A stretch of 32,998 bases of DNA from Clostridia bacterium (GTDB lineage Bacteria; Bacillota; Clostridia; Oscillospirales; CAG-272), in the NCBI GenBank assembly GCA_017623975.1, contig JAGANX010000057.1, positions 1-32,998 on the forward strand. Reading direction: 5' to 3'. Positions 17,739-32,998 of the stretch are shown here, piece after piece (within the stretch, counting starts at the first letter, position 1; each line of letters begins with the position of its first letter). The notes beneath the pieces were generated by a model. It was not told the DNA's origin. It made no database searches and was given only the letters and a program-made list of their open reading frames with translations. The position numbers were made by a program, and so were the translations under genes.

Positions 17739-17776
17739 AACACAAAAATCCGACCACAGGGTCGGATTTTTGTGTT
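17739..17776. terminator. Bidirectional terminator between his operon and LRR gene
   Basis: A perfect 17-bp stem, AACACAAAAATCCGACC (17739-17755) with its complement at 17760-17776 and a four-base ACAG loop. The T-run sits within the right arm on each strand. It starts at the hisJ stop and reaches into the stop codon of the convergent gene. Confidence 0.88.
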
Positions 17777-19490
17777 ATTCAATAGAAGCTGCGTCGTAAA
17801 CAATTGTGTATTCACTTGCATTCCATTGGTCATCCCAATTTGTATTTTCAGTACTTCCTGCATAATAGATAATAGCACCTTTGCACAGCTTCCAAAAAGC
17901 ACCTTCACCAACGAAAATAAGTTCTTTTGGAAGAAAAACTTTTTGCAAATTTTTGCATTGTGAAAAAGCGTAATCGTCAATATAAGTAACGCTGCTTGGT
18001 ATAATTAAAGTTTCGATTTGAGTGCAACTATCAAAGGAATGATATCCAATTTTTTTAAGACTATCGGGGAAAGTAAGGCTCTTTAAGCTGGAATTGCTAT
18101 AAAAAGCGGAATCTTCGATTTCTTCAAGAGAACTTGGAAAATCAATTTCTTCTAATGATGTACTTTTATAAAAAGATTCGTAATTTATTGCTTTGAGAGT
18201 ATTGGGAAAAACAATTTCTTTTAAGTTTGAGTTTTCGTAAAATGCCTGATTTCCAATAATTTCGATTCCTTCCGGTACTTTAAACACTGTTTCACTTTTT
18301 CCGCGGGCATAAAGAATAAAAACAGTTTTGTCTTTGCTTAAAATGTTTCCGTCAAAAGAAACGAATGCTTCGTTATCTATGTCAACTATATATTCTGATA
18401 TGGAAGAACAACCGATAAAAGCGTAACCTCTAATTTCATTTATATTTTTAGATATATAGAAGGATGTTAGGGAAGAACAATCCCTAAAACTATAATTCGG
18501 AATTTTCACAGTAGTGTCCGGTATGGTAACGGAAGTCAAACTTGTACAACGATCAAAAGCACCGAAGGTTAACTCGCCCGTTAGAATAACTTCTGACAGT
18601 GACAACGGTATGTAATACTCCATAATATAATTTGCATTAATAAATGGGGAAGGATATGCTTGTTTTACTGAGTACGAGCCATCAAACTCAACTTCGCTGA
18701 AAATGTAGCCGAACAACGCTTCTTTATCTTTGGCATCTCTACTTTTGCCAACAAAGGGGATTGTGATTTTTTGCAAATTGCTGCAACCTTTAAATGCCCC
18801 TGCTTCAATAGTTAAAATTGAATCAGGTATAATTATTTCTTTAAATGTTCCGTTATTAAAAGCGGTTCCTTCAATTAAAGTAACGGGCAAACCTTTGTAT
18901 TTGTTTGGAATTATTACTTTATCGTCATCGCAAACACCCAAAGAAACTTTATAAGATGTACTGTCGTTATTTAAAGTAAATGTTAGGCTTTGACTATAAT
19001 TTTCTATATGGCAAACTTCACAAATGTTATTTGAAAAAATATGCTCGGCTTTCGGAATAATATCCTGTGGCAAAAGAATTTTTCTGCAAATGCCGCAAAT
19101 AACTCCATTTGTTAAACCTGTTTTTTCGCATGTTGCAGCAGTACCGTTTATGACCGATGGCAAATGCTCTGTAATAGGAATTTCTTCTTGCTCTACTAAA
19201 ATTTTATCACAAACCGCACATTTAACTCCTTCGGTTAGCCCTGGAACAGAGCAAGAGGGCTCGACTCTTTCAATGGCGATTCTTGTATGATCGGTTTTGT
19301 CAATTGAATCGGTTTTGGAAAGGTTGCAGAGTGAACAATAAGTAATTTTTGTGCCTTTATCCACACAGGTAGCCTCTTTCATCGTTTCCCAACTGCCAAA
19401 CTCGTGTTTACATTCGCCGCAAGAGGACAGCAAGAGTGATAAACAAACAGTAAAAATTGTACATAATAAAAAAGAAATTTTGCGTTTCAT
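17775..19490 (-). CDS. BspA-type leucine-rich repeat lipoprotein
   Basis: A 571-aa surface lipoprotein. The signal peptide ends in LLLSSC (lipobox, Cys24). Residues 27-150 hold three repeats of about 40 aa with the pattern Cys-x3-G...Cys-x2-Cys...H (TYCSLC, VKCAVC, VICGIC, then ICEVC), a Cys-pair repeat common in clostridial surface proteins and probably metal or disulfide stabilised. From about residue 195 there are many BspA-type LRRs (for example FKEIIIPDSILTIEAGAFKGCSNLQKITIP). Such LRR proteins are usually adhesive or binding; the target is unknown. The start is the second ATG (19490), which has AGGAG nine bases before it; the first ATG (19496) is only three bases away. It is divergent from an XRE regulator. 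Confidence 0.88.
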   Translation of the reverse strand: MKRKISFLLCTIFTVCLSLLLSSCGECKHEFGSWETMKEATCVDKGTKITYCSLCNLSKTDSIDKTDHTRIAIERVEPSCSVPGLTEGVKCAVCDKILVEQEEIPITEHLPSVINGTAATCEKTGLTNGVICGICRKILLPQDIIPKAEHIFSNNICEVCHIENYSQSLTFTLNNDSTSYKVSLGVCDDDKVIIPNKYKGLPVTLIEGTAFNNGTFKEIIIPDSILTIEAGAFKGCSNLQKITIPFVGKSRDAKDKEALFGYIFSEVEFDGSYSVKQAYPSPFINANYIMEYYIPLSLSEVILTGELTFGAFDRCTSLTSVTIPDTTVKIPNYSFRDCSSLTSFYISKNINEIRGYAFIGCSSISEYIVDIDNEAFVSFDGNILSKDKTVFILYARGKSETVFKVPEGIEIIGNQAFYENSNLKEIVFPNTLKAINYESFYKSTSLEEIDFPSSLEEIEDSAFYSNSSLKSLTFPDSLKKIGYHSFDSCTQIETLIIPSSVTYIDDYAFSQCKNLQKVFLPKELIFVGEGAFWKLCKGAIIYYAGSTENTNWDDQWNASEYTIVYDAASIE

Positions 19491-19519
19491 TTTCATTAAC
19501 TCCTTTGCTTATTTATTTA

Positions 19520-24180: not shown

Positions 24181-24567
24181 ATGATTGAAGTTGGAATGAG
24201 ATATACAGTTAAAACAACAGTGGAAGAAAAGGACACTGCCAAGACAGTTGGCAGCGGTACGTTGGCGGTTTTAGCGACCCCGCGTATGATTGCACTAATG
24301 GAGGAAGCAGCATACAAGTGTATTAGTGCTGAGCTGGAAGAAGGTGCTTCAAGTGTTGGTACAAATATGTCTGTCAAGCATTTAAGTGCCACCCCCGTTG
24401 ATATGGATGTGACCGCTGTTGCAGAAGTAGTCCTTGTTGAAGGCAGAAAAATAGTCTTTAAGGTTGAAGCCTATGACAAGGTCGGCATAATAGGCGAAGG
24501 CACGCATGAAAGATTTATAGTAGGTGAAGAAAAGTTTATTTCTAAAACGTACGCAAAACTAAATTAG
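24181..24567 (+). CDS. Hotdog thioesterase, FlK-like
   Basis: A 128-aa single hotdog domain resembling fluoroacetyl-CoA thioesterase FlK and the wider group of small thioesterases. The three FlK catalytic positions appear kept: Thr33 in VLATPRM, Glu41 in ALMEEAAY, and His67 in VKHLSATPVD; GEGTHERFIV near the C-terminus also matches FlK's GSGTHERAVI. Natural substrates in gut Clostridia are unknown, and fluoroacetate is unlikely. It would hydrolyse some acyl-CoA. AGGAGAGTTGAAAT provides a good ribosome site. It may be cotranscribed with the upstream XRE gene past a weak hairpin. Confidence 0.85.
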   Translation: MIEVGMRYTVKTTVEEKDTAKTVGSGTLAVLATPRMIALMEEAAYKCISAELEEGASSVGTNMSVKHLSATPVDMDVTAVAEVVLVEGRKIVFKVEAYDKVGIIGEGTHERFIVGEEKFISKTYAKLN

Positions 24568-25497: not shown

Positions 25498-25569
25498 ATT
25501 TTCACCTCTCTTTTACAATATTATATCACTAAAAAGCACTTTTGTACATATATTGCCAAAAAAATCCTA

Positions 25570-25598
25570 TTGAACAGTCGTGTATTGGGTGTTATAAT
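25570..25598 (+). promoter_or_regulatory. Promoter of secreted hydrolase gene
   Basis: TTGAAC (25570-25575), 17-base spacer, TATAAT (25593-25598). The leader is about 65 bases and ends in AAAGGAG before the ATG. Confidence 0.8.
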
Positions 25599-25668
25599 TA
25601 AAATGGTAAAAAGGTACTTTTGCATTGTGCTAAGCAAAGCCTTATATCAAGAATAAAAGGAGAAAATT

Positions 25669-28600
25669 ATGAAAAAGCGTTTTTTGACTTTAATCACAGC
25701 GATAATGTGTATGTTTTTGCTTGCTATTTTTGTAAGTGCGGAAACATATACGGTGTCAAGCGACAGCGAGTATGCGGAAGTGTATGAAAAAGCAGTAAGC
25801 GGAGATACGATTATAATTGACTCAAAGCTCACCTGTGACATTTACGCAAATAAGAGTGTAACCTATGTATTAAGGGCAGACTGGGAAAGCTCTAAGCTCG
25901 TAATCAACCAATCAAATGTAGAGGTTTCATTTATTGCAGATGGTGGTAACTACAAAATCCTGCCTACAAATTATTCTACAACAGACGGTTGGATGAATAT
26001 TAGCGATATTTACGAAAAGGTAGTAATCAATTTAGGCGGTATGAACGGTGGAACTGTTACAATTGATGGCTCAAATGCCACACACGATAGAGTTAGCTAT
26101 GTGCCAGTAATGCCCGAGACAGTTCAGTATGATATATCTGTATTCCCTGATATTTGTTTGAACCTACTAAGCGGCTCTACGATTGCTAATTTTAATACCA
26201 CAACAAAGGATGATAATGTAAATGCATGCATTCTTTATGCAAAAACCGTCAATATGTATGATGGTGCTCAGATTTATGCAAACAAAGTAATTAGCGCACC
26301 GCTTATTAAGTCCTGTTACTTTAATCTTTTTGGCGGTGAGATTTTTGGTAATGTGCTTGAAAGTATTAGAATGGGTGTCACCGGTATGGCGTTTATATAC
26401 GCGGATAGGCACTTTGTAATGTATGACGGACGAATTTCCGAAAATATTTTCAATGCAAAAAACGGTAAATACCAATTCAATGTAGCGGGCTTTATTTCAA
26501 CAAACCAATACCACTATGGAAGTAGGGGAGTAGCCGTTTTAGGTGGCGAAGTTGGTGACCGTTATGTATCAGGCACGGGCAATAATGAAATTAGTGCTGT
26601 GTTTGGAGTATACGTTAAGGACAACGGACTAACTAACTTTTGCTATAACACAGGAATCGAGGTTGGTGACAGATATACATTTACTGACACTCCGCAGCTA
26701 ACATTTGACCCGATCTTAGGCAAAACAATATGGAAAGTAAGTAATGTTTCTGCTAACAATGTTAGTGTAAATAACTATGGATTCTGTTGGAACCAAACAA
26801 AAAAATCTGGTGATAAGGCGGTTGTATTCCTTGACGCAGAGAAAAAGACTATTGCAGGAAGCAATTTTGATACATATGAAGTAATTAACGCATATATAGA
26901 TGGTGTTTATGCTCATAGTGGTTCAACAACCATCTCAATTCCAAGTGGTTATAGCCTCTGGTCAACCTCTGGCACAGAGTATTGCCATACAGGAAGGGCA
27001 TACACTCTTGACGAGGTGAAAGCGGCTAATGCCATTGCATATTATACTGCGTATGAGGCAGAAATAGTAACCAATAATGGAGTAACATCCTGCTCCGGAT
27101 GCGGAAAGGTTTATTCCTGTAATAACCCTGAGCATGAGCATGAAATTATTTCCTTCAATTATGAAAGCTACGACAAACAGGGTGAAAAGACAGTAAAATG
27201 CAAGACTTGTAATGTAGTTAACTCATTTTCAACTCCTGCATTGTTTACCTGCTTAGGTTATTCTGCTCCTGATGATGGCAGTAACGGCATTGCTGTTGGA
27301 TATGCAGTAAACATTGAGGCAATCGATGCCTATGAAATAGCAACCGACAAAACTATCAATTACGGTGTATTCGTGGTGCTTGCGGATAGATTGGGAGATC
27401 AGCCAATATTCACAGAGGATGGAACAGTGGCTGACGGAGTAGTTAGCGAAGATATAACAAGCTATAAATTTACAGCCTTTGACTTGAAGATTGTGGGCTT
27501 TGCAAATGAACACAAGGATACAAGGTTTGCAATGGGTACTTATATTGCAACCGTTAGCGGTGATGCAACGGAATATACATATATTCAAGGCGGCACTGTA
27601 AATGAAAATGAAAAATATCATTTTGCTTCCTATAATGACGTTATTGATTTAATTCCTGACGAAATTGTAGAATTTGATGACTTTGTAATTAAAGCGGGTG
27701 AGGAAATTATCCTTCCATCTACCGTAAAGGTGAACGGAAAAGATAAGGAGATTACATACAGCTTTGAGGGTGAGAGCATTTCTATTGAAAATAACGTTCT
27801 CAAAGGACTTGTCAAGGGAAGTGAAACAGTAGTAACCGTAACAGGAGAAAAGATTACAGGAACATTCAAGGTAAAGGTAGAATCAGATAAATATAAGTAT
27901 GTAGTGGTTATTGGTGTTGACGGTGCAGGCGCATTTTTTAAGAATGCAGAAACACCAAACATTGATGCAATCTTTGCAAATGGAGCAGTAACCTATGATT
28001 GCTTAACTGCCGATCCAACTATAAGTGCGCAGTGCTGGGGCTCTCTTATGCACGGTGTAACTCCATCGGTTCACGGACTTACAAATGCTGTCGTAAGCTC
28101 AACAGCATTTCCAAGCAACTCAAAATATCCAAGCTTTTTCCGTGTAATAAGGGAAAATGATGAAAATGCGGTTCTTGCTTCCTTCTGTAACTGGAATCCG
28201 ATTAATGTTGGAATTATTGAAAACGATATTGGCGTTCACAAGGTTGGCGGCATTTCCGATTCAAAGCTAACTGACGAAATACTTGCATACCTTGAAAGCA
28301 ACAATCCAACAGCATTGTTTGTTCAATTTGACGAGGCTGACGGTGCGGGCCACTCTTATGGCTACGGTACAGAGAACCAGCTTGCAAAAATATCAGAAAT
28401 TGACGGCTATATCGGACGCATTTATGATACATATGAGCAAAACGGCATACTTGACGAAACACTCTTTATCGTAACCTCTGACCACGGCGGCTCAGGAACA
28501 AGCCACGGCGGACTTTCAGATGCAGAAAAGTATGTAATGTTTGCAGCAGCAGGAAAGAATGTTCAAAACGGCACAATAGGTGATATAGAAATTCGTGATA

Positions 28601-29433
28601 CTGCGGCTATCGTTCTTCACGCATTAGGCTACGAAATTCCTGAAACATGGACGGCAAGAGTACCCTCCGGCTTGTTTGAAGGCGTTGTAGCAGGCGAGCG
28701 ACCCGTTTATGTTGACAAGGAATCAGACCGTTATCACGAAACAGAGCCAACACCGGAGCAGGGAAGCACAGGCTATGTAACTAATTACATTAAAGATCAT
28801 GAATTGAACACATATTTAACATTTGACGGTGTCATTACAGACAATTGTGGCGGTACAACCACACAAGGCGGCAACCTCTATTTTGTTGAGGATGGATATT
28901 TTGGTAAGGGTGTAGCACTTGATGACGGATATGTTTCACTGAATGACTTTAAACCGGGAACTGACAGCTATACCTTTGCATTTTGGATAAATACAAAAGC
29001 CATTACCTCTGACCCTTGTATTATTTCAAATAAGAATTGGGATTCGGGATATAATCTTGGCTTTACAATAACTATCAGATCAAGCGGAGTTTCCTTGAAT
29101 ATTGGTAATGGCACTACTCGAAGTGACTGCACGGTGGAACTTCCTACTGATTATACAGAGGGCTGGATGCATGTGCTTGCATTTATTGATAGCACAAACA
29201 ACAAGATAGGTGTATGTTTAGACTTTGGAACAATCGTAACAGTTGATATACCAACAGCGTTGCAAGGTGTGTCTATGGATACAAATTATGCAACTAACAT
29301 CGGACAAGATGGAAGAGGCAACTATAATGTATCACTGCCCGCAACAATTGACGAGCTTATGATTTTTGAAGGTGCATTTGACCAATCGGACGTGGATGCT
29401 CTGAAAGAGTATTACGGATTGACAAATAATTAG
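25669..29433 (+). CDS. Secreted alkaline-phosphatase-superfamily hydrolase with LamG-like domain
   Basis: A 1254-aa exported protein (signal peptide to VSA at about 24). Residues 30-420 look beta-helical (repeated GGxVxI-like strands). About 470-524 carries Cys pairs (SGCGKVYSC, CKTC). About 525-660 is a domain shared with the LRR protein at 29767-31908. About 663-740 is Ig-like. About 743-990 is a type I phosphodiesterase/nucleotide pyrophosphatase-like core: metal Asp751 in VIGVDGAG, nucleophile region DPTISAQCWGS (Thr784 or Ser786), FDEADGAGHSYG (Asp891, His895), SDHGG (Asp938, His939) and SHGG (His946). Residues from about 1040 form a LamG/concanavalin-like domain. The superfamily includes phosphodiesterases, phosphatases and sulfatases; no sulfatase C-x-P-x-R is seen. 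Substrate is unknown; no LPXTG anchor or dockerin is seen. Confidence 0.85.
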   Translation: MKKRFLTLITAIMCMFLLAIFVSAETYTVSSDSEYAEVYEKAVSGDTIIIDSKLTCDIYANKSVTYVLRADWESSKLVINQSNVEVSFIADGGNYKILPTNYSTTDGWMNISDIYEKVVINLGGMNGGTVTIDGSNATHDRVSYVPVMPETVQYDISVFPDICLNLLSGSTIANFNTTTKDDNVNACILYAKTVNMYDGAQIYANKVISAPLIKSCYFNLFGGEIFGNVLESIRMGVTGMAFIYADRHFVMYDGRISENIFNAKNGKYQFNVAGFISTNQYHYGSRGVAVLGGEVGDRYVSGTGNNEISAVFGVYVKDNGLTNFCYNTGIEVGDRYTFTDTPQLTFDPILGKTIWKVSNVSANNVSVNNYGFCWNQTKKSGDKAVVFLDAEKKTIAGSNFDTYEVINAYIDGVYAHSGSTTISIPSGYSLWSTSGTEYCHTGRAYTLDEVKAANAIAYYTAYEAEIVTNNGVTSCSGCGKVYSCNNPEHEHEIISFNYESYDKQGEKTVKCKTCNVVNSFSTPALFTCLGYSAPDDGSNGIAVGYAVNIEAIDAYEIATDKTINYGVFVVLADRLGDQPIFTEDGTVADGVVSEDITSYKFTAFDLKIVGFANEHKDTRFAMGTYIATVSGDATEYTYIQGGTVNENEKYHFASYNDVIDLIPDEIVEFDDFVIKAGEEIILPSTVKVNGKDKEITYSFEGESISIENNVLKGLVKGSETVVTVTGEKITGTFKVKVESDKYKYVVVIGVDGAGAFFKNAETPNIDAIFANGAVTYDCLTADPTISAQCWGSLMHGVTPSVHGLTNAVVSSTAFPSNSKYPSFFRVIRENDENAVLASFCNWNPINVGIIENDIGVHKVGGISDSKLTDEILAYLESNNPTALFVQFDEADGAGHSYGYGTENQLAKISEIDGYIGRIYDTYEQNGILDETLFIVTSDHGGSGTSHGGLSDAEKYVMFAAAGKNVQNGTIGDIEIRDTAAIVLHALGYEIPETWTARVPSGLFEGVVAGERPVYVDKESDRYHETEPTPEQGSTGYVTNYIKDHELNTYLTFDGVITDNCGGTTTQGGNLYFVEDGYFGKGVALDDGYVSLNDFKPGTDSYTFAFWINTKAITSDPCIISNKNWDSGYNLGFTITIRSSGVSLNIGNGTTRSDCTVELPTDYTEGWMHVLAFIDSTNNKIGVCLDFGTIVTVDIPTALQGVSMDTNYATNIGQDGRGNYNVSLPATIDELMIFEGAFDQSDVDALKEYYGLTNN

Positions 29434-29447
29434 TACGAGGTGATATA

Positions 29448-29588
29448 ATGAAATATGAAACACCAAAATATGAAATAAATGCTGTTGAAACAGAAGACAT
29501 CTTAATTGCTTCATCCGGCTTTGAAATATCAAGGACGGATACAGGAGAGGGAAAGGTTCAGCTTGATTTTTCATCATTATTTCGCTGA
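29448..29588 (+). CDS. 46-aa acidic peptide, unknown function
   Basis: A 46-codon gene: MKYETPKYEINAVETEDI, then LIASSGFEISRTDTGEGK, then VQLDFSSLFR. It starts 14 bases after the hydrolase stop with AGGTGAT four bases upstream and is followed by a terminator, so it is a real cotranscribed unit. It has no signal peptide and no Cys. A decayed copy lies after the second secreted protein (31929-32009), with 12 of 24 aligned residues identical, which supports a conserved coding role. Short proteins of the type MKYxxPxxE...E-x-x-D-(I/V)-(I/L)-x-(A/T)-S occur in Clostridia as far as I recall, without known function. A propeptide, export partner or peptide precursor are possible; none is shown. Confidence 0.75.
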   Translation: MKYETPKYEINAVETEDILIASSGFEISRTDTGEGKVQLDFSSLFR

Positions 29589-29599
29589 TATTTAATACT

Positions 29600-29635
29600 A
29601 AAAGCCGTGTAGATTCTGTCTATACGGCTTTTTGT
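29600..29635 (+). terminator. Terminator after 46-aa peptide gene
   Basis: AAAAGCCGTGTAGA (29600-29613), loop TTCTG, TCTATACGGCTTTT (29619-29632; one G-T pair), then TTG. It closes the hydrolase-peptide operon. Confidence 0.88.
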
Positions 29636-29664
29636 TCGAAATAAAATTGCACAATTTACCGCAC

Positions 29665-29693
29665 TTGAAATTTATATTACATTATGCTATAAT
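29665..29693 (+). promoter_or_regulatory. Promoter of second secreted protein
   Basis: TTGAAA (29665-29670), 17-base spacer, TATAAT (29688-29693), about 70 bases before the ATG at 29767. Confidence 0.8.
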
Positions 29694-29766
29694 TAATTTG
29701 ATTAATTAAGAATAGCAATAAGAGAAACAGGAACACGCTTTTATACAATAATTAGAGGTGAATTTT

Positions 29767-31908
29767 ATGAAAAAGAGAATCTATTTGGTGCTTGCAATGA
29801 TAGCGTTGCTGGCTTGTGCTTTTGCAATAAGTGTAAATGCAACTACTGTTTATGTGGACGAGGACGGTAATCAACTATTTAGCTATGAGGTGGATGATAG
29901 CCAAATAATTACCTCCTACACAGGCTATTTTCCGAAAGAAGATTCACAGGGGAATGCTCTTACCTGGTATGTTACCGCTACAAATACGGAGAATGGAAGT
30001 ACGGTAAAAACAGTTGCTTCTGTTTTAACTCTTGACGAAAATTATGCTACCTTGAATAACGGTACATATAGCTACAAAGCAGGCACGGTAAGCACCAAAA
30101 CGGTGGTTTCGGTTAATTTCCCAAGTGATATGGGAATAACTACACTCAATCTTAATAATGGTGGTTATAAGAATAATAATGGCTGGGATCCAAGCGGTAC
30201 AGAAATTTTGTTTGTTTATTTGCCATCAACCTTAACCACTCTTCCGGAAAGAATAATTCAGGGTTCAAAGACACTTGTGTGTGAAATGCCAAGCGAAATG
30301 CCTATTAAGGAGATTTCACGTGTTGCTTTTTATGAGGCAAAGTGCCTTCGTGAGATCAACATTCCGTCAAGTGTTACAGTAATCCACGGTACAAGTAAAA
30401 ATGATGGTGCGGCATTTTACGCATGCGACTCACTTGAAAGAGTAACCTTTGGCGATAATTCTCAGCTTGAAGTCATAGAAAAAATGGCGTTTAATCTGTG
30501 CGGCAGCTTGAAGTATGCGAAAATTCCTGACGGGGTAAAAAGGATTGGTGAGCATGCATTTAGCTATACTGATTTAAGGGAAAGTCCCTTCGGTCTCGGA
30601 TCTCTTTGTGAGGAAATGGGCGGTAGATGCTTTGGTAATATACCAAATCTTGAAAGCTTTATCGTTCCTGCTACTCTTAAAAAGGTACAAATTCTTGGAA
30701 GTAATGACTGGGGACCTATTGCCGAAACAAATGTTAAGCTTGTCACCTTTGGTAATTCGGCGCCTATTACTGAGCTTGCACCGTCATTCTTTGGCAGAGC
30801 CATAATTGAAAAGATAATTTTGCCCAATGGACCTACAAATATTCCGAATAGATATTTTATCAACGCAACTCTTAAAGATATTTGCTTCTCAGATACTATC
30901 GAAACCGCTGATGAGCGTGTGTTCCAGGCTGCATATGTTGAGGTAATTAGGCTTGGAGCTAATTTTAAGCATTTTACCAACACGATCGATGATAATCACA
31001 GCTTTACAAACATTGTAAAGGGGCTTAAAGAGATTTATTTGCCTGCGTCCTTTTATGCTGAAAATGTGGATGTGGAATACCATGTTGGCTATGCCTTCAC
31101 TCTTGACGGAGCCGATACTGTAAACACCAAGTTCTTCTACACAGGCGATGCGGCACAGTTAGCTACTGCTATTGAAAACTTTAAAAATGACACAAAGGCA
31201 TCAAACACAAACAACTGGAAATTTACAGGTGCAACACAAATTAGCTATATTGATTACATAAGCGATACCGAAAAATATTCAACCGGCAACTACATTATTT
31301 ACGGCTATAACCCATGTGAAGCCTTTTGTGAGCCCTTCTATACCAACGATATGGATTTCAACACAACCATAGCATATGAAAGCTACTTGGAGTATGGTAA
31401 AAAGGCAGTTGTTTGCCCTGTATGCAAGACATTAGGTGACGGCGTAGAGGTAGCCCCACTCTTTACTTGTCTTGGGTATTCAGCTTCCGAAAGCGGCATG
31501 TGCGGAATTGTAATAGGCTTTACTCAAAATAACGAAGCTATTCTTGAATACAAAAATGTAATAGGAAAATTCTTTAAATATGGAGCCTTTGCGGCTTCAA
31601 GGAATGCACTTGCAGACAAGGATATATTCGGAAAGGATGGAACGGCAGAAAAGGGAGTAATTAATGTTGAATTTACAAATTATAGGTTTGATGCGTTTGA
31701 ACTTAAAATAGTTGGCTTTACAGATGCACAGAAGGACATTAAATTTGCTATGGGCGCATATGTGGTTGTAACAGACGGTGAAACGGTAGAGTATTCCTAT
31801 CTTCAATCTGACGAGCCTAACGGAAATGAAAAATACTGCTATGTATCATATAACGATATCGCAGGAAGCTCTTCAAAAGACAAAGCAAGAGCGCAGATAA
31901 ATGGGTAA
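29767..31908 (+). CDS. Secreted BspA-type LRR protein
   Basis: A 713-aa exported protein with signal peptide MKKRIYLVLAMIALLACAFA and a probable cut after SVNA. There is no lipobox. Residues from about 160 to 430 are BspA-type LRRs (for example CLREINIPSSVTVIHG, SLERVTFGDNSQLEVIEKMAFNLCGSLKYAKIPDGVKRIGEHAF), interspersed with degenerate repeats. A Cys pair VCPVC precedes the C-terminal domain (about 565-698), which matches the hydrolase (LFTCLGYSA, DGTAEKGV, DAFELKIVGF, KFAMGAYV). The ATG at 29767 follows AGAGGTGAATTTT; a GTG at 29758 is part of that ribosome site. It has its own promoter. Binding or adhesive function is likely from the LRRs but unproven. Confidence 0.85.
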   Translation: MKKRIYLVLAMIALLACAFAISVNATTVYVDEDGNQLFSYEVDDSQIITSYTGYFPKEDSQGNALTWYVTATNTENGSTVKTVASVLTLDENYATLNNGTYSYKAGTVSTKTVVSVNFPSDMGITTLNLNNGGYKNNNGWDPSGTEILFVYLPSTLTTLPERIIQGSKTLVCEMPSEMPIKEISRVAFYEAKCLREINIPSSVTVIHGTSKNDGAAFYACDSLERVTFGDNSQLEVIEKMAFNLCGSLKYAKIPDGVKRIGEHAFSYTDLRESPFGLGSLCEEMGGRCFGNIPNLESFIVPATLKKVQILGSNDWGPIAETNVKLVTFGNSAPITELAPSFFGRAIIEKIILPNGPTNIPNRYFINATLKDICFSDTIETADERVFQAAYVEVIRLGANFKHFTNTIDDNHSFTNIVKGLKEIYLPASFYAENVDVEYHVGYAFTLDGADTVNTKFFYTGDAAQLATAIENFKNDTKASNTNNWKFTGATQISYIDYISDTEKYSTGNYIIYGYNPCEAFCEPFYTNDMDFNTTIAYESYLEYGKKAVVCPVCKTLGDGVEVAPLFTCLGYSASESGMCGIVIGFTQNNEAILEYKNVIGKFFKYGAFAASRNALADKDIFGKDGTAEKGVINVEFTNYRFDAFELKIVGFTDAQKDIKFAMGAYVVVTDGETVEYSYLQSDEPNGNEKYCYVSYNDIAGSSSKDKARAQING

Positions 31909-31915
31909 TATCAAA

Positions 31916-32024
31916 ATGTTAAACTTATAATATAAAATCAGAAGATATTTTGACTGCTCAATCCAATCCTGAAATATCAAAAGCATATAACAGAAATGGT
32001 AAAATACAAAACCGTTGCTATTAG
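31916..32024 (+). pseudogene. Decayed copy of 46-aa peptide gene
   Basis: Just after the LRR protein stop. The frame through 31929-32009 reads NIKSEDILTAQSNPEISKA then YNRNGKIQ, matching the 46-aa peptide at EDIL, A, S, EIS, GK and Q: 12 identities in the 24 residues from ET(E)D to (V/I)Q. The frame has a TAA at 31920-31922 and no usable start; the ATG at 31916 is in another frame and stops after four codons. There is no ribosome site. It runs into a perfect hairpin and stops at 32022-32024. I read it as a broken paralogue. Confidence 0.6.
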
Positions 32025-32062
32025 CAAAAGTGGCTAATGTTAGCAACGGTTTTGTATTTTTA
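32001..32062. terminator. Long perfect hairpin after LRR protein
   Basis: A 20-bp perfect stem, AAAATACAAAACCGTTGCTA (32001-32020) with its complement at 32041-32060; an inner TTAGC/GCTAA pair lies within the loop. TTTTTA follows on the plus strand, so it can terminate the LRR transcript. The left arm overlaps the end of the decayed peptide copy. Confidence 0.8.
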
Positions 32063-32212
32063 ATATGTGCTGATCTTTTGAAAATCAGTCCTTAGCAAAT
32101 GGAGAAATCATCGGTTGTGTACTAAAATAATCAGTGCTTCTTTATATAGCGATACTGTATGAGCTGAAACAAATCTTGCTTCCCAAATTATTCGTTGAAT
32201 AATTGATAATCT

Positions 32213-32244
32213 AAAAGCTGTATGGAGAAATCCATACAGCTTTT
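32213..32244. terminator. Terminator-like hairpin
   Basis: AAAAGCTGTATGGA (32213-32226), loop GAAA, TCCATACAGCTTTT (32231-32244): a perfect 14-bp stem. It resembles the terminator at 29600-29632 in sequence and in its distance from a CG(C/T)TGA upstream, but no intact gene precedes it here. Confidence 0.65.
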
Positions 32245-32289
32245 GTTGTACACCTAAAACTACGATATACGGGTGGATATTTATTGCTT

Positions 32290-32333
32290 AAAAAGTAAAC
32301 CCACAACACCTTTTGAAAAAAGCATTATGGGTT
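32290..32333 (-). terminator. Terminator of histidine kinase gene
   Basis: On the minus strand AACCCATAATGC (from 32333) pairs with the segment ending TGTTGTGGGTT (to 32298), with several G-T pairs and about 17 bp of stem, then TACTTTTTAAG. It lies just after the kinase stop. Confidence 0.7.
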
Positions 32334-32341
32334 ATAAGTAT

Positions 32342-32998
32342 TTATTTTTCAGTTGGAAAAATTACAGTAAAGGTTGAGCCTAAACCAAACTCACTCTCAA
32401 TAAAAAGCTCTGCCCCAATAAAAGCACAAATATGCTTGACGATAGCAAGCCCAAGACCTGTTCCGCCGGTACGCTTGGAATGGGACTTATCAACACGATA
32501 GAAGCGTTCACATAAACGAGGTAAATGCTCTTTTTCGATGCCGATTCCCGTGTCTTTAACTTGCATAGTTATTCCACAAGCGGTGTTTGAAAATGAAACG
32601 GTAATTAAGCCATTATCTTTATTGTATTTTATAGCGTTTGATATAAGATTTTCTATAAGCTCAAATATCATATGCTGTTCAGTGACAAGGCTTGCAGAAC
32701 CAATAATTTCAGTTGATATTTTTTTCTTTTTAATTTCCTCTGAAAATTCAGTAATAATTTCCTTGACTGTTTCATCAAGAGAAATTAATACAGGTGCATT
32801 TTGTGTAGCATCCTTATTTTCTATTTTCGACAACATAAGCATATCGGAAATGAGAGAGCCAAGACGAATACTTTCCTTGTGAATACGTGCTATCTGCTTT
32901 TTAGAGCCTTCATCAATACCTTCCTTGTTCATAAGAACCTCGGAAAAGCCCTGCATAACTGTTATTGGTGTTTTAAGCTCGTGAGAAGCATTTGCAAA
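32342..32998 (-). CDS. Sensor histidine kinase, C-terminal part (partial)
   Basis: The C-terminal 218 or so residues of a membrane sensor kinase of the PhoR/WalK type, cut by the window edge. The frame is open to base 32998. The dimerisation/phosphoacceptor H-box is ASHELKTPITVMQGFSE, just at the edge. The ATP-binding domain follows with N-box ENLISNAIKYN, G1 DTGIGI, F-box ERFYRVDKSHS and G2 GGTGLGLAIVKH. All catalytic boxes are present, so the kinase should be active. The sensing part and the partner response regulator lie beyond the window, so the signal is unknown. The ATG at 32956 is internal, not the start. Confidence 0.93.
   Translation of the reverse strand, partial: FANASHELKTPITVMQGFSEVLMNKEGIDEGSKKQIARIHKESIRLGSLISDMLMLSKIENKDATQNAPVLISLDETVKEIITEFSEEIKKKKISTEIIGSASLVTEQHMIFELIENLISNAIKYNKDNGLITVSFSNTACGITMQVKDTGIGIEKEHLPRLCERFYRVDKSHSKRTGGTGLGLAIVKHICAFIGAELFIESEFGLGSTFTVIFPTEK

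Follow-up and report, generated by a model that had tools for sequence, protein, structure and literature searches.

Contig JAGANX010000057.1 of the Clostridia bacterium assembly GCA_017623975.1 (positions 1 to 32,998, hereafter the window) raises the question of why a gene of only 46 codons should lie directly behind the gene for a large secreted hydrolase, with a decayed copy in the same position behind a second secreted protein. The window spans one entire contig (G000:C6) from a 1.49-Mb, 54%-complete assembly. The 46-codon gene probably encodes a precursor of the ribosomally synthesised and post-translationally modified peptide (RiPP) type, in a system resembling that of the linear polyphosphorylated peptides (LPPs): precursors scattered as second genes of secreted-protein operons would be matured by the products of a trio of genes, encoding a kinase, a RiPP recognition element (RRE) and a peptidase, and used together with the partner protein. 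What was computed in support of this reading comprises the peptide family, its coding constraint, its position, a recombining cassette, co-occurrence with the trio and linkage in cis in four other genomes.

The 46-codon gene and its decayed copy

The features of the two peptide loci are as follows.

29437..29444, + strand: ribosome-binding site GAGGTGAT of the peptide gene, read from the sequence; ATG at 29448
29448..29588, + strand: intact 46-codon peptide gene; leader YxxP...ETED...S22, then an acidic tail
29600..29632, + strand: terminator-like hairpin followed by T's, 3' of the peptide gene; -20.8 kcal/mol, z -6.5, 0 of 200 shuffles equally stable
about 31926..32024, + strand: decayed copy of the peptide gene, start and N-terminus lost; score 60
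32001..32060, + strand: terminator-like hairpin overlapping the end of the decayed copy; -30.9 kcal/mol, z -8.4

The start codon lies 15 nt beyond the hydrolase stop codon, and the gene with ribosome site and terminator that the original prediction had placed behind the secreted hydrolase was recovered in full. A simple terminator scan did not list the hairpin at 29600-29632, and a promoter scan was uninformative because it returned about as many promoter-like sites (10) as shuffled sequences did (9.8). No Rfam match was obtained across 25500-32998, and neither Pfam nor NCBIfam matched the window peptide; 62 relatives gave single weak matches only, one of them to the ryptide RrrA at 0.0093. 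The window peptide showed no signal peptide by eye. Another copy in the same genome is 77% identical to the window peptide, with proportions of nonsynonymous (pN) and synonymous (pS) differences of 0.15 and 0.53 (one gap codon dropped); judged by its substitutions, the 46-codon gene behaves as coding. Searches of the window's own genome yielded nine places with the single peptide sequence, the decayed copy among them (E ≤ 10), and 16 with a profile of eight own copies, which did not list the decayed copy.

The decayed frame (31932-32009) begins 23 nt 3' of the stop codon of the second secreted protein; in-frame stops precede it, and the start and conserved N-terminus are gone. It aligns with a score of 60 to the other genomic copy and of 56 to the window's own peptide, the latter with 12 identities over 26 columns, so that the 12 identical residues originally counted stand, over a longer alignment than the 24 residues then given. 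None of 2000 dinucleotide-shuffled versions of the region reached a score of 60 (maximum 41), nor did any of 940 other stretches of the contig (maximum 37), as expected of the decayed copy that had been proposed here. In a whole-genome search the copy is weak, with an E-value of 0.37, and its descent from the peptide gene is argued from position and the shuffle test. A second decayed copy, L068 (G008:C90:14474-14596), has a frame that ends after MKYVTPKYEMAVVETEDI.

A peptide family with a conserved leader and an acidic tail

A profile search across the genus gave at least 165 matches in 25 of 29 genomes (E ≤ 0.01), with 15 in the window's genome and at least 20 in a single genome (among the matches listed, in each of G008 and G025). 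The check for homologues that accompanied the original prediction thus returned relatives in most of the genus, not zero. Neighbourhoods were counted at 148 of these places, the last two listed and those beyond the listing being left out; the places are not independent, since some come from one contig common to two assemblies (L138/L141) or from contigs that are nearly identical (L197/L198). The former pair is one contig of 24345 bases present in two assemblies (G004:C9 and G006:C37), which represents shared or misbinned sequence. Peptides from 141 of the 148 places (full, with a start, 30-90 aa, L068 excluded) were clustered at about 70% identity into 86 representatives, 62 of which were typed into an alignment (A2). 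Named relatives, with 17 confirmed loci among 63 matching stretches, were metagenome-assembled genomes (MAGs) of uncultured Clostridia and Oscillospiraceae; apart from one further MAG, they derive from the gut of goat, roe deer and water deer.

Column entropies over the 86 representatives describe a conserved N-terminal leader and a variable C-terminus. The Tyr and Pro of YxxP are invariant in all 86 representatives and all 141 peptides; Asp stands at Y+14, eleven residues after the Pro, in 83 of 86, and Y+15 is Ile or Val in 83. Every representative has a Ser within Y+17 to Y+20 (at Y+19 in 77 or 79, depending on the register). The invariance is partly by construction because the collecting profile contains YxxP and these features. 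Past the Ser the tails are acidic (mean net charge -3.3), fall into several recognisable types and contain Cys in 3 of 86 cases. In six groups of close copies pN/pS was 0.01-0.24 for tails and 0.05-0.92 for leaders, by which measure the peptides are coding and the tail is no neutral filler. One group (L060, L061, L062, L063, L067, L069 and L079) had a leader pN/pS of 0.92 against a tail value of 0.10, the opposite of what RiPPs usually show. Discrete RREs bind leaders of this layout, with YxxP in a conserved N-terminus and a variable C-terminus after it.

A trio of candidate kinase, RRE and candidate peptidase co-occurs with the peptides

A PqqD search gave strong stand-alone PF05402 frames (open frames of 90-114 aa) in 17 of the 29 genus genomes, in all of which the RRE is the middle gene of a trio formed by a candidate kinase of about 240 aa, the RRE of 88 aa and a candidate protease of about 155 aa. 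The three genes are adjacent in the loci viewed; in G005 and G024 the contig ends within the kinase gene. The RRE matches PF05402 at 1e-15, above the cut-off, and its profile found among PDB entries the lasso RRE TbiB1 (3.5e-7) and two 2026 PqqD-family entries (5.4e-5 and 3.1e-4). Its invariant N35 and D73 align with an Asn and an Asp of 9x8z_B, which we infer to be LppB; 9x90_B has Gly at the first of these places. The LPP report gives N33 and D70 of LppB as the residues that bind a Tyr-type leader (PMC13381572). The kinase P-loop, SGTGKST, is invariant in seven rows, as are Ser28 and His66 of the protease in six aligned rows; kinase and peptidase profiles had no PDB match at 0.01. Kinase scores were similar in G070, G071 and G080, genomes of other genera whose trio is discussed below. 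The protease matched sigpep_I_arch at 8.3e-9 in G080 and 1.8e-9 in G071, both below the cut-off, and Peptidase_S24 just above the cut-off in two.

PF14907 (NTP_transf_5) occurs in 23 of the 29 genus genomes, the window's included, and lies elsewhere than the trio in three loci viewed. A tandem NTP_transf_5 pair is present in the window's own genome (G000:C9:121346-123277), on a contig that also carries two peptides. Ten proteins of one trio neighbourhood included no MsbA-like transporter, for which no family search was made. Neither a lasso cyclase nor a transglutaminase-type B2 protein was among the ten proteins around the G016 trio, the single genome scanned for these.

Matches to the kinase and protease profiles and the strong discrete RRE fell in the same 17 genus genomes, all of which carry peptides. 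Eight of the 12 genomes without a trio also have peptides. Whether the trio locus could be assessed was gauged by RlmA, a housekeeping gene that flanks it: RlmA is missing from seven of these eight genomes, and G025, the remaining one, has a contig that breaks off within RlmA towards the trio. G007, G010, G017 and G020 hold RlmA in intact surroundings and have neither trio nor peptide match. Peptides thus occur in 17 of 17 assessable genus genomes with the trio versus 0 of 4 without (p 1.7e-4). The kinase was found in 15 of 15 peptide genomes from other genera of the family, against 87 of 143 genomes overall (p 3.4e-4), and in 12 of 12 peptide genomes from eight other families in a class sample, against 84 of 290 overall (p 1.9e-7).

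Around the 17 trio loci of the genus, no precursor was found to a distance of about 5.5 kb among ORFs of at least 80 aa (shorter ones only near the RRE). Four genomes outside the genus link a precursor to these genes in cis. G071 and G080 each carry a precursor with a FETEDII leader directly upstream of kinase, RRE, protease and NTP_transf_5 genes. The order in G070 is precursor, exported protein, kinase, RRE and protease, followed by Wzz and a polysaccharide tyrosine autokinase. G393, a one-contig genome, has a precursor and then the kinase, to which the view was limited.

Association with genes for secreted proteins

The first genes of the intact and decayed units, and the domain that their products share, are located as follows.

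25669..29433, + strand: exported hydrolase, 1254 aa, first gene of the intact unit; PF01663 2.5e-20, PF13385 1.1e-10; signal-peptide-like N-terminus by eye
27160..27669, + strand: shared domain of about 160 aa inside the hydrolase, seed of the domain profile; 44% identity to the C-terminal domain of the leucine-rich repeat (LRR) protein
29767..31908, + strand: exported BspA-type LRR protein, 713 aa, first gene of the decayed unit; PF13306 6.2e-26; signal-peptide-like N-terminus by eye
31375..31905, + strand: shared domain at the C-terminus of the LRR protein, found with the domain profile

The hydrolase combines a type I phosphodiesterase/nucleotide pyrophosphatase domain with a LamG-like C-terminus. 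Both proteins had been thought to share a domain of C-terminal type within a duplicated unit. The common domain is confirmed; it is C-terminal in the LRR protein only and internal in the hydrolase, where the phosphodiesterase and LamG domains follow it. Because its position differs between the two proteins, what is duplicated is the domain with the peptide and not the whole proteins. Across the fetched loci, which overlap and are not independent, 155 of 188 counted domain matches stop no more than 19 residues short of the protein's C-terminus. PDB matches of the domain were weak (0.04 over 36 positions only) and were taken as chance. Two further genes of the window lie outside the units: 24181-24567 (+) encodes a fluoroacetyl-CoA-thioesterase-like (FlK) hotdog protein (2.7e-38), and 17775-19496 (-) a further BspA-type LRR protein of 573 aa, beside which the searches list no peptide.

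Genes upstream of the 148 peptides were sought from -45 to +60 nt and called secreted-type by a home-made signal-peptide rule. A secreted-type protein was found at 76 peptides, a gene cut by the contig start at 12, the contig start itself at eight and another open reading frame (ORF) at five; in the control, 28 of 255 other close same-strand pairs from the same loci had a secreted-type first gene. The commonest gaps to the secreted-type protein were 0 nt (18 cases) and -3 nt (16), spacings that indicate translational coupling. An ORF with the shared domain adjoins 99 of the 148 peptides (89 upstream, 10 downstream) and is absent beside 49, nine of which are uninformative contig-edge cases.

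A similar position recurs beyond the genus. Three of 18 places in other genera are linked to the trio; of the other 15, 11 have a large ORF on the same strand ahead of them, at a distance of 15-157 nt, and four do not. Of 37 matches in other families, 26 loci were viewed, and in 22 of them a same-strand ORF ends -7 to +39 nt upstream; these ORFs were mostly cut at 1.5 kb, so that export could be checked only for part. A Pfam scan of 20 such upstream proteins left 12 with no match above cut-off, the remaining eight matching LRR, exo/endonuclease-phosphatase, metallophosphatase, GDSL lipase, Ig-like and GLUG families.

Other recurrent contexts were seen. At L078, L117, L120, L121, L144, L162, L165, L180 and L195 the peptide lies 3' of an ABC-permease-like gene (METVKVKKETKNKIRVDFERAP; labelled by eye), with a big secreted protein downstream at several of the ABC-permease loci; the shared domain was present in the three that were checked (L225-L227). 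At L154, L157, L160, L172, L178, L183 and L192 it lies 3' of a pyruvate:ferredoxin-oxidoreductase-like gene and/or 5' of an ABC ATPase (by eye), which is possibly an exporter. A further recurrent place is 3' of a small conserved gene.

A recombining 3' cassette

Within a genome, pairs of loci typically share 80-97% nucleotide identity over the peptide and the 419-455 nt ahead of its start (up to 554 in some pairs). The ORFs ahead of this cassette vary from 1.6 to 2.7 kb and their heads differ. In a second class of pairs identity is limited to the peptide and the preceding 10-35 nt. On these boundaries, the domain with the peptide, or the peptide alone, is exchanged as a unit, and many copies consequently stand at contig ends. 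Near-identical cassettes are found at many contig ends, for example G000 C13, C20 and C52 and G008 C52 and C75; these MAGs therefore probably under-count the family.

The more alike two domains are, the more alike are the peptide tails (Mantel r 0.62 over 68 pairs; 0 of 999 permutations), and the leaders behave likewise (r 0.54, 0 of 999); between genomes the values are 0.55 for the tail and 0.43 for the leader. Such a correlation is expected from co-inheritance of the cassette alone and is no proof of contact. A comparison of tails with the last 40 residues of the partner gave lower scores for the own partner (17.2) than for others (18.4). At L327 (G070:C39, oriented, peptide at 432) the tail ends in MPENMTCIS and the next exported protein in MPENMTPIS, a sharing of C-termini that the tail-partner comparison found to be no rule elsewhere.

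Proposed mechanism and alternative explanations

On the grounds of co-occurrence, linkage and analogy with the LPPs (PMC13381572), maturation of the peptides would comprise binding by the RRE, phosphorylation of Ser and cleavage of the leader. The leader (Y3xxP6 ... E14-T15-x-D17-I) would be bound by the discrete PqqD-type RRE, the HprK-like kinase encoded beside it would phosphorylate the conserved Ser (S22 in the window peptide), and the third trio gene product, an archaeal-type signal-peptidase-like Ser/His protease, would cut off the leader. The acidic tail could then be released or exported as a linear (poly)phosphorylated peptide. More speculatively, on the grounds of position and coupling, this phosphopeptide might act with the co-encoded secreted protein, for instance as a surface anchor, ligand or attachment point. 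A wider form of the proposal is possible, although we lean slightly against it: across many Clostridia families, trans-acting RiPP machinery would make dozens of phosphopeptides, one per secreted protein, serving large extracellular proteins as partner subunits, anchors or ligands and spread by a 3' cassette of docking domain and peptide gene.

Several results weigh against a trio-matured precursor that serves a secreted partner. The kinase matches ScmC (1.5e-6) and an HprK-related model (0.0064), both below cut-off, and no Pfam family; the protease matches PF00717 (Peptidase_S24) at 2.3e-5, just above cut-off, and sigpep_I_arch at 3.1e-6, below it. No trio genes were found in the window's own genome, which is 54% complete and lacks the flanking RlmA too. 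Counting unassembled trios as absent reduces the genus comparison to 17 of 17 versus 8 of 12, with p 0.02 only; all the co-occurrence p values ignore phylogeny, and the genus genomes with neither trio nor peptide may be largely one clade. These four peptide-free genomes do carry PF05402 matches, in longer frames of 239-619 aa. Conversely, most kinase genomes lack a peptide match at E ≤ 1e-4 (72 of 87 in other genera, 72 of 84 from the class sample), so that either divergent precursors escape the profile or the kinase works on others; some of the weaker kinase matches are longer proteins, which may belong to other systems. The full LPP leader consensus occurs in 0 of 141 peptides, and FET alone in seven. 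Mimicry of the partner by the tail was considered and rejected, the mean local score being 27.9 for the own partner and 28.1 for others (1275 of 2000 permutations as high). Finally, for 47 of the 148 peptides no upstream ORF ends at -45 to +60 nt. The pairing of peptide and exported protein put forward in the original prediction is nevertheless supported: by position (76 of 148 against 28 of 255 controls, and 99 of 148 with the domain) it is real, yet not universal. The probable nature of the peptide, a RiPP-type precursor with an RRE-type leader matched to a trio encoded elsewhere, lay beyond that prediction.

The trio might instead mature ordinary secreted peptides of LPP or lasso kind, acting as signals or bacteriocins, with their position a functionally meaningless by-product of a mobile or recombining 3' cassette. 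We consider this unlikely, though it deserves to be taken seriously: in its favour are the DNA cassettes that recur, the copies that are nearly identical, the contigs that break at peptides, the second breakpoint 10-35 nt upstream, by which the peptide alone recombines too, and the peptide copies that have other neighbours. Against it speak the same position held elsewhere without a shared cassette, in 11 of 15 places in other genera (at most 157 nt) and in 22 of 26 other-family loci (-7 to +39 nt), the commonest gaps in the genus of 0 and -3 nt, which are coupled, and the tails conserved within types. Coupling of this kind would also suit an unmodified cytosolic helper, such as a secretion chaperone or a monitor of translation or secretion, for which YxxP and the trio would be coincidental; the absence by eye of a signal peptide from the peptide and of any trio found in the window's own genome agree with this. 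Such a helper is nonetheless improbable given the co-occurrence of the kinase with peptides in 12 of 12, 15 of 15 and 17 of 17 genomes, the precursors adjoining the trio in four genomes (in G393, the kinase) and the invariant YxxP and Ser at a fixed distance. That the peptide is a chance small ORF, with a spurious similarity behind the second gene, has next to nothing to recommend it apart from the E-value of 0.37 obtained by the decayed copy alone, and is contradicted by at least 165 matches in 25 of 29 genomes, by purifying selection and by the shuffle test.

RiPP-type peptides are usually viewed as natural products that stand alone and not as partners of secreted proteins. Should the 46-codon gene indeed encode an LPP-like precursor used with its partner, RiPPs would become parts of the secretome and not free natural products, and overlooked small proteins behind secreted-protein genes would gain a concrete maturation pathway. 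The range of LPP-like RiPPs would then grow from single clusters in Bacilli to include dispersed systems with multiple precursors in uncultured Clostridia of the ruminant gut and their relatives. Service to secreted proteins would also suggest a role for LPP-like RiPPs, whose role their discoverers describe as unknown (PMC13381572).

Comparison with known systems

The LPP RiPPs are linear polyphosphorylated peptides known from the lpp cluster of Paenibacillus alginolyticus; their leader consensus is YxxPxVLxHQxIxFETxxS, each cluster contains one to three precursors, and the phosphorylated S3 lies 18 residues after the leader Tyr (Y-16 to S3) (PMC13381572). The present system shares with them a YxxP leader and variable C-terminus, a discrete RRE and a conserved Ser spaced similarly from the Tyr, usually by 19 residues; its candidate kinase and candidate protease resemble their HprK-like kinase and archaeal-type signal-peptidase-like protease (by NCBIfam scores below cut-off). 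NTP_transf_5, an LPP core gene, is present in the cis clusters of G071 and G080, and a polysaccharide locus (Wzz and autokinase) stands beside the trio in G070. It differs from the LPPs in its leader consensus, the FETEDII of the trio-linked precursors of G080 and G071 sitting at another spacing, and in the number and place of its precursors, which reach at least 20 in a genome, show no linkage to the trio within the window's genus and lie behind secreted-protein genes.

Lasso peptides (paeninodin-like and others) likewise combine a discrete PqqD-type RRE acting on a Y/WxxP leader with an HprK-like kinase and a nucleotidyltransferase, according to the LPP report (PMC13381572) and a survey of ruminal lasso peptides (PMC7533575). 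They differ in that no cyclase or transglutaminase-type peptidase was among the ten proteins of the G016 trio area, and the candidate leader peptidase here is signal-peptidase-like; the lasso peptide and bacteriocin readings were ranked lower. The SynChlorMet cassette (TIGR04249 ScmC, TIGR04248 ScmD) resembles the trio in its kinase (1.5e-6) and PqqD relative (6e-4), although both matches are far below the model cut-offs. Prochlorosin-type systems have many dispersed precursors on which one enzyme set acts in trans, by lanthipeptide chemistry. The proposed system shares their dispersed precursors and trans-acting enzymes, whereas its tails are almost without Cys and its precursors lie in secreted-protein operons.

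Literature searches, mostly at the level of abstracts, returned no description of precursors dispersed into secreted-protein operons, and a word search of PMC12710340 gave no occurrence. The window system is not filed as LPP proper because it lacks both the full consensus (0 of 141 peptides) and, in the window's genus, a precursor inside the cluster. The LPP RiPPs are nevertheless the nearest known kind, from which the window system is distinguished by the dispersal of many precursors into operons of secreted proteins.

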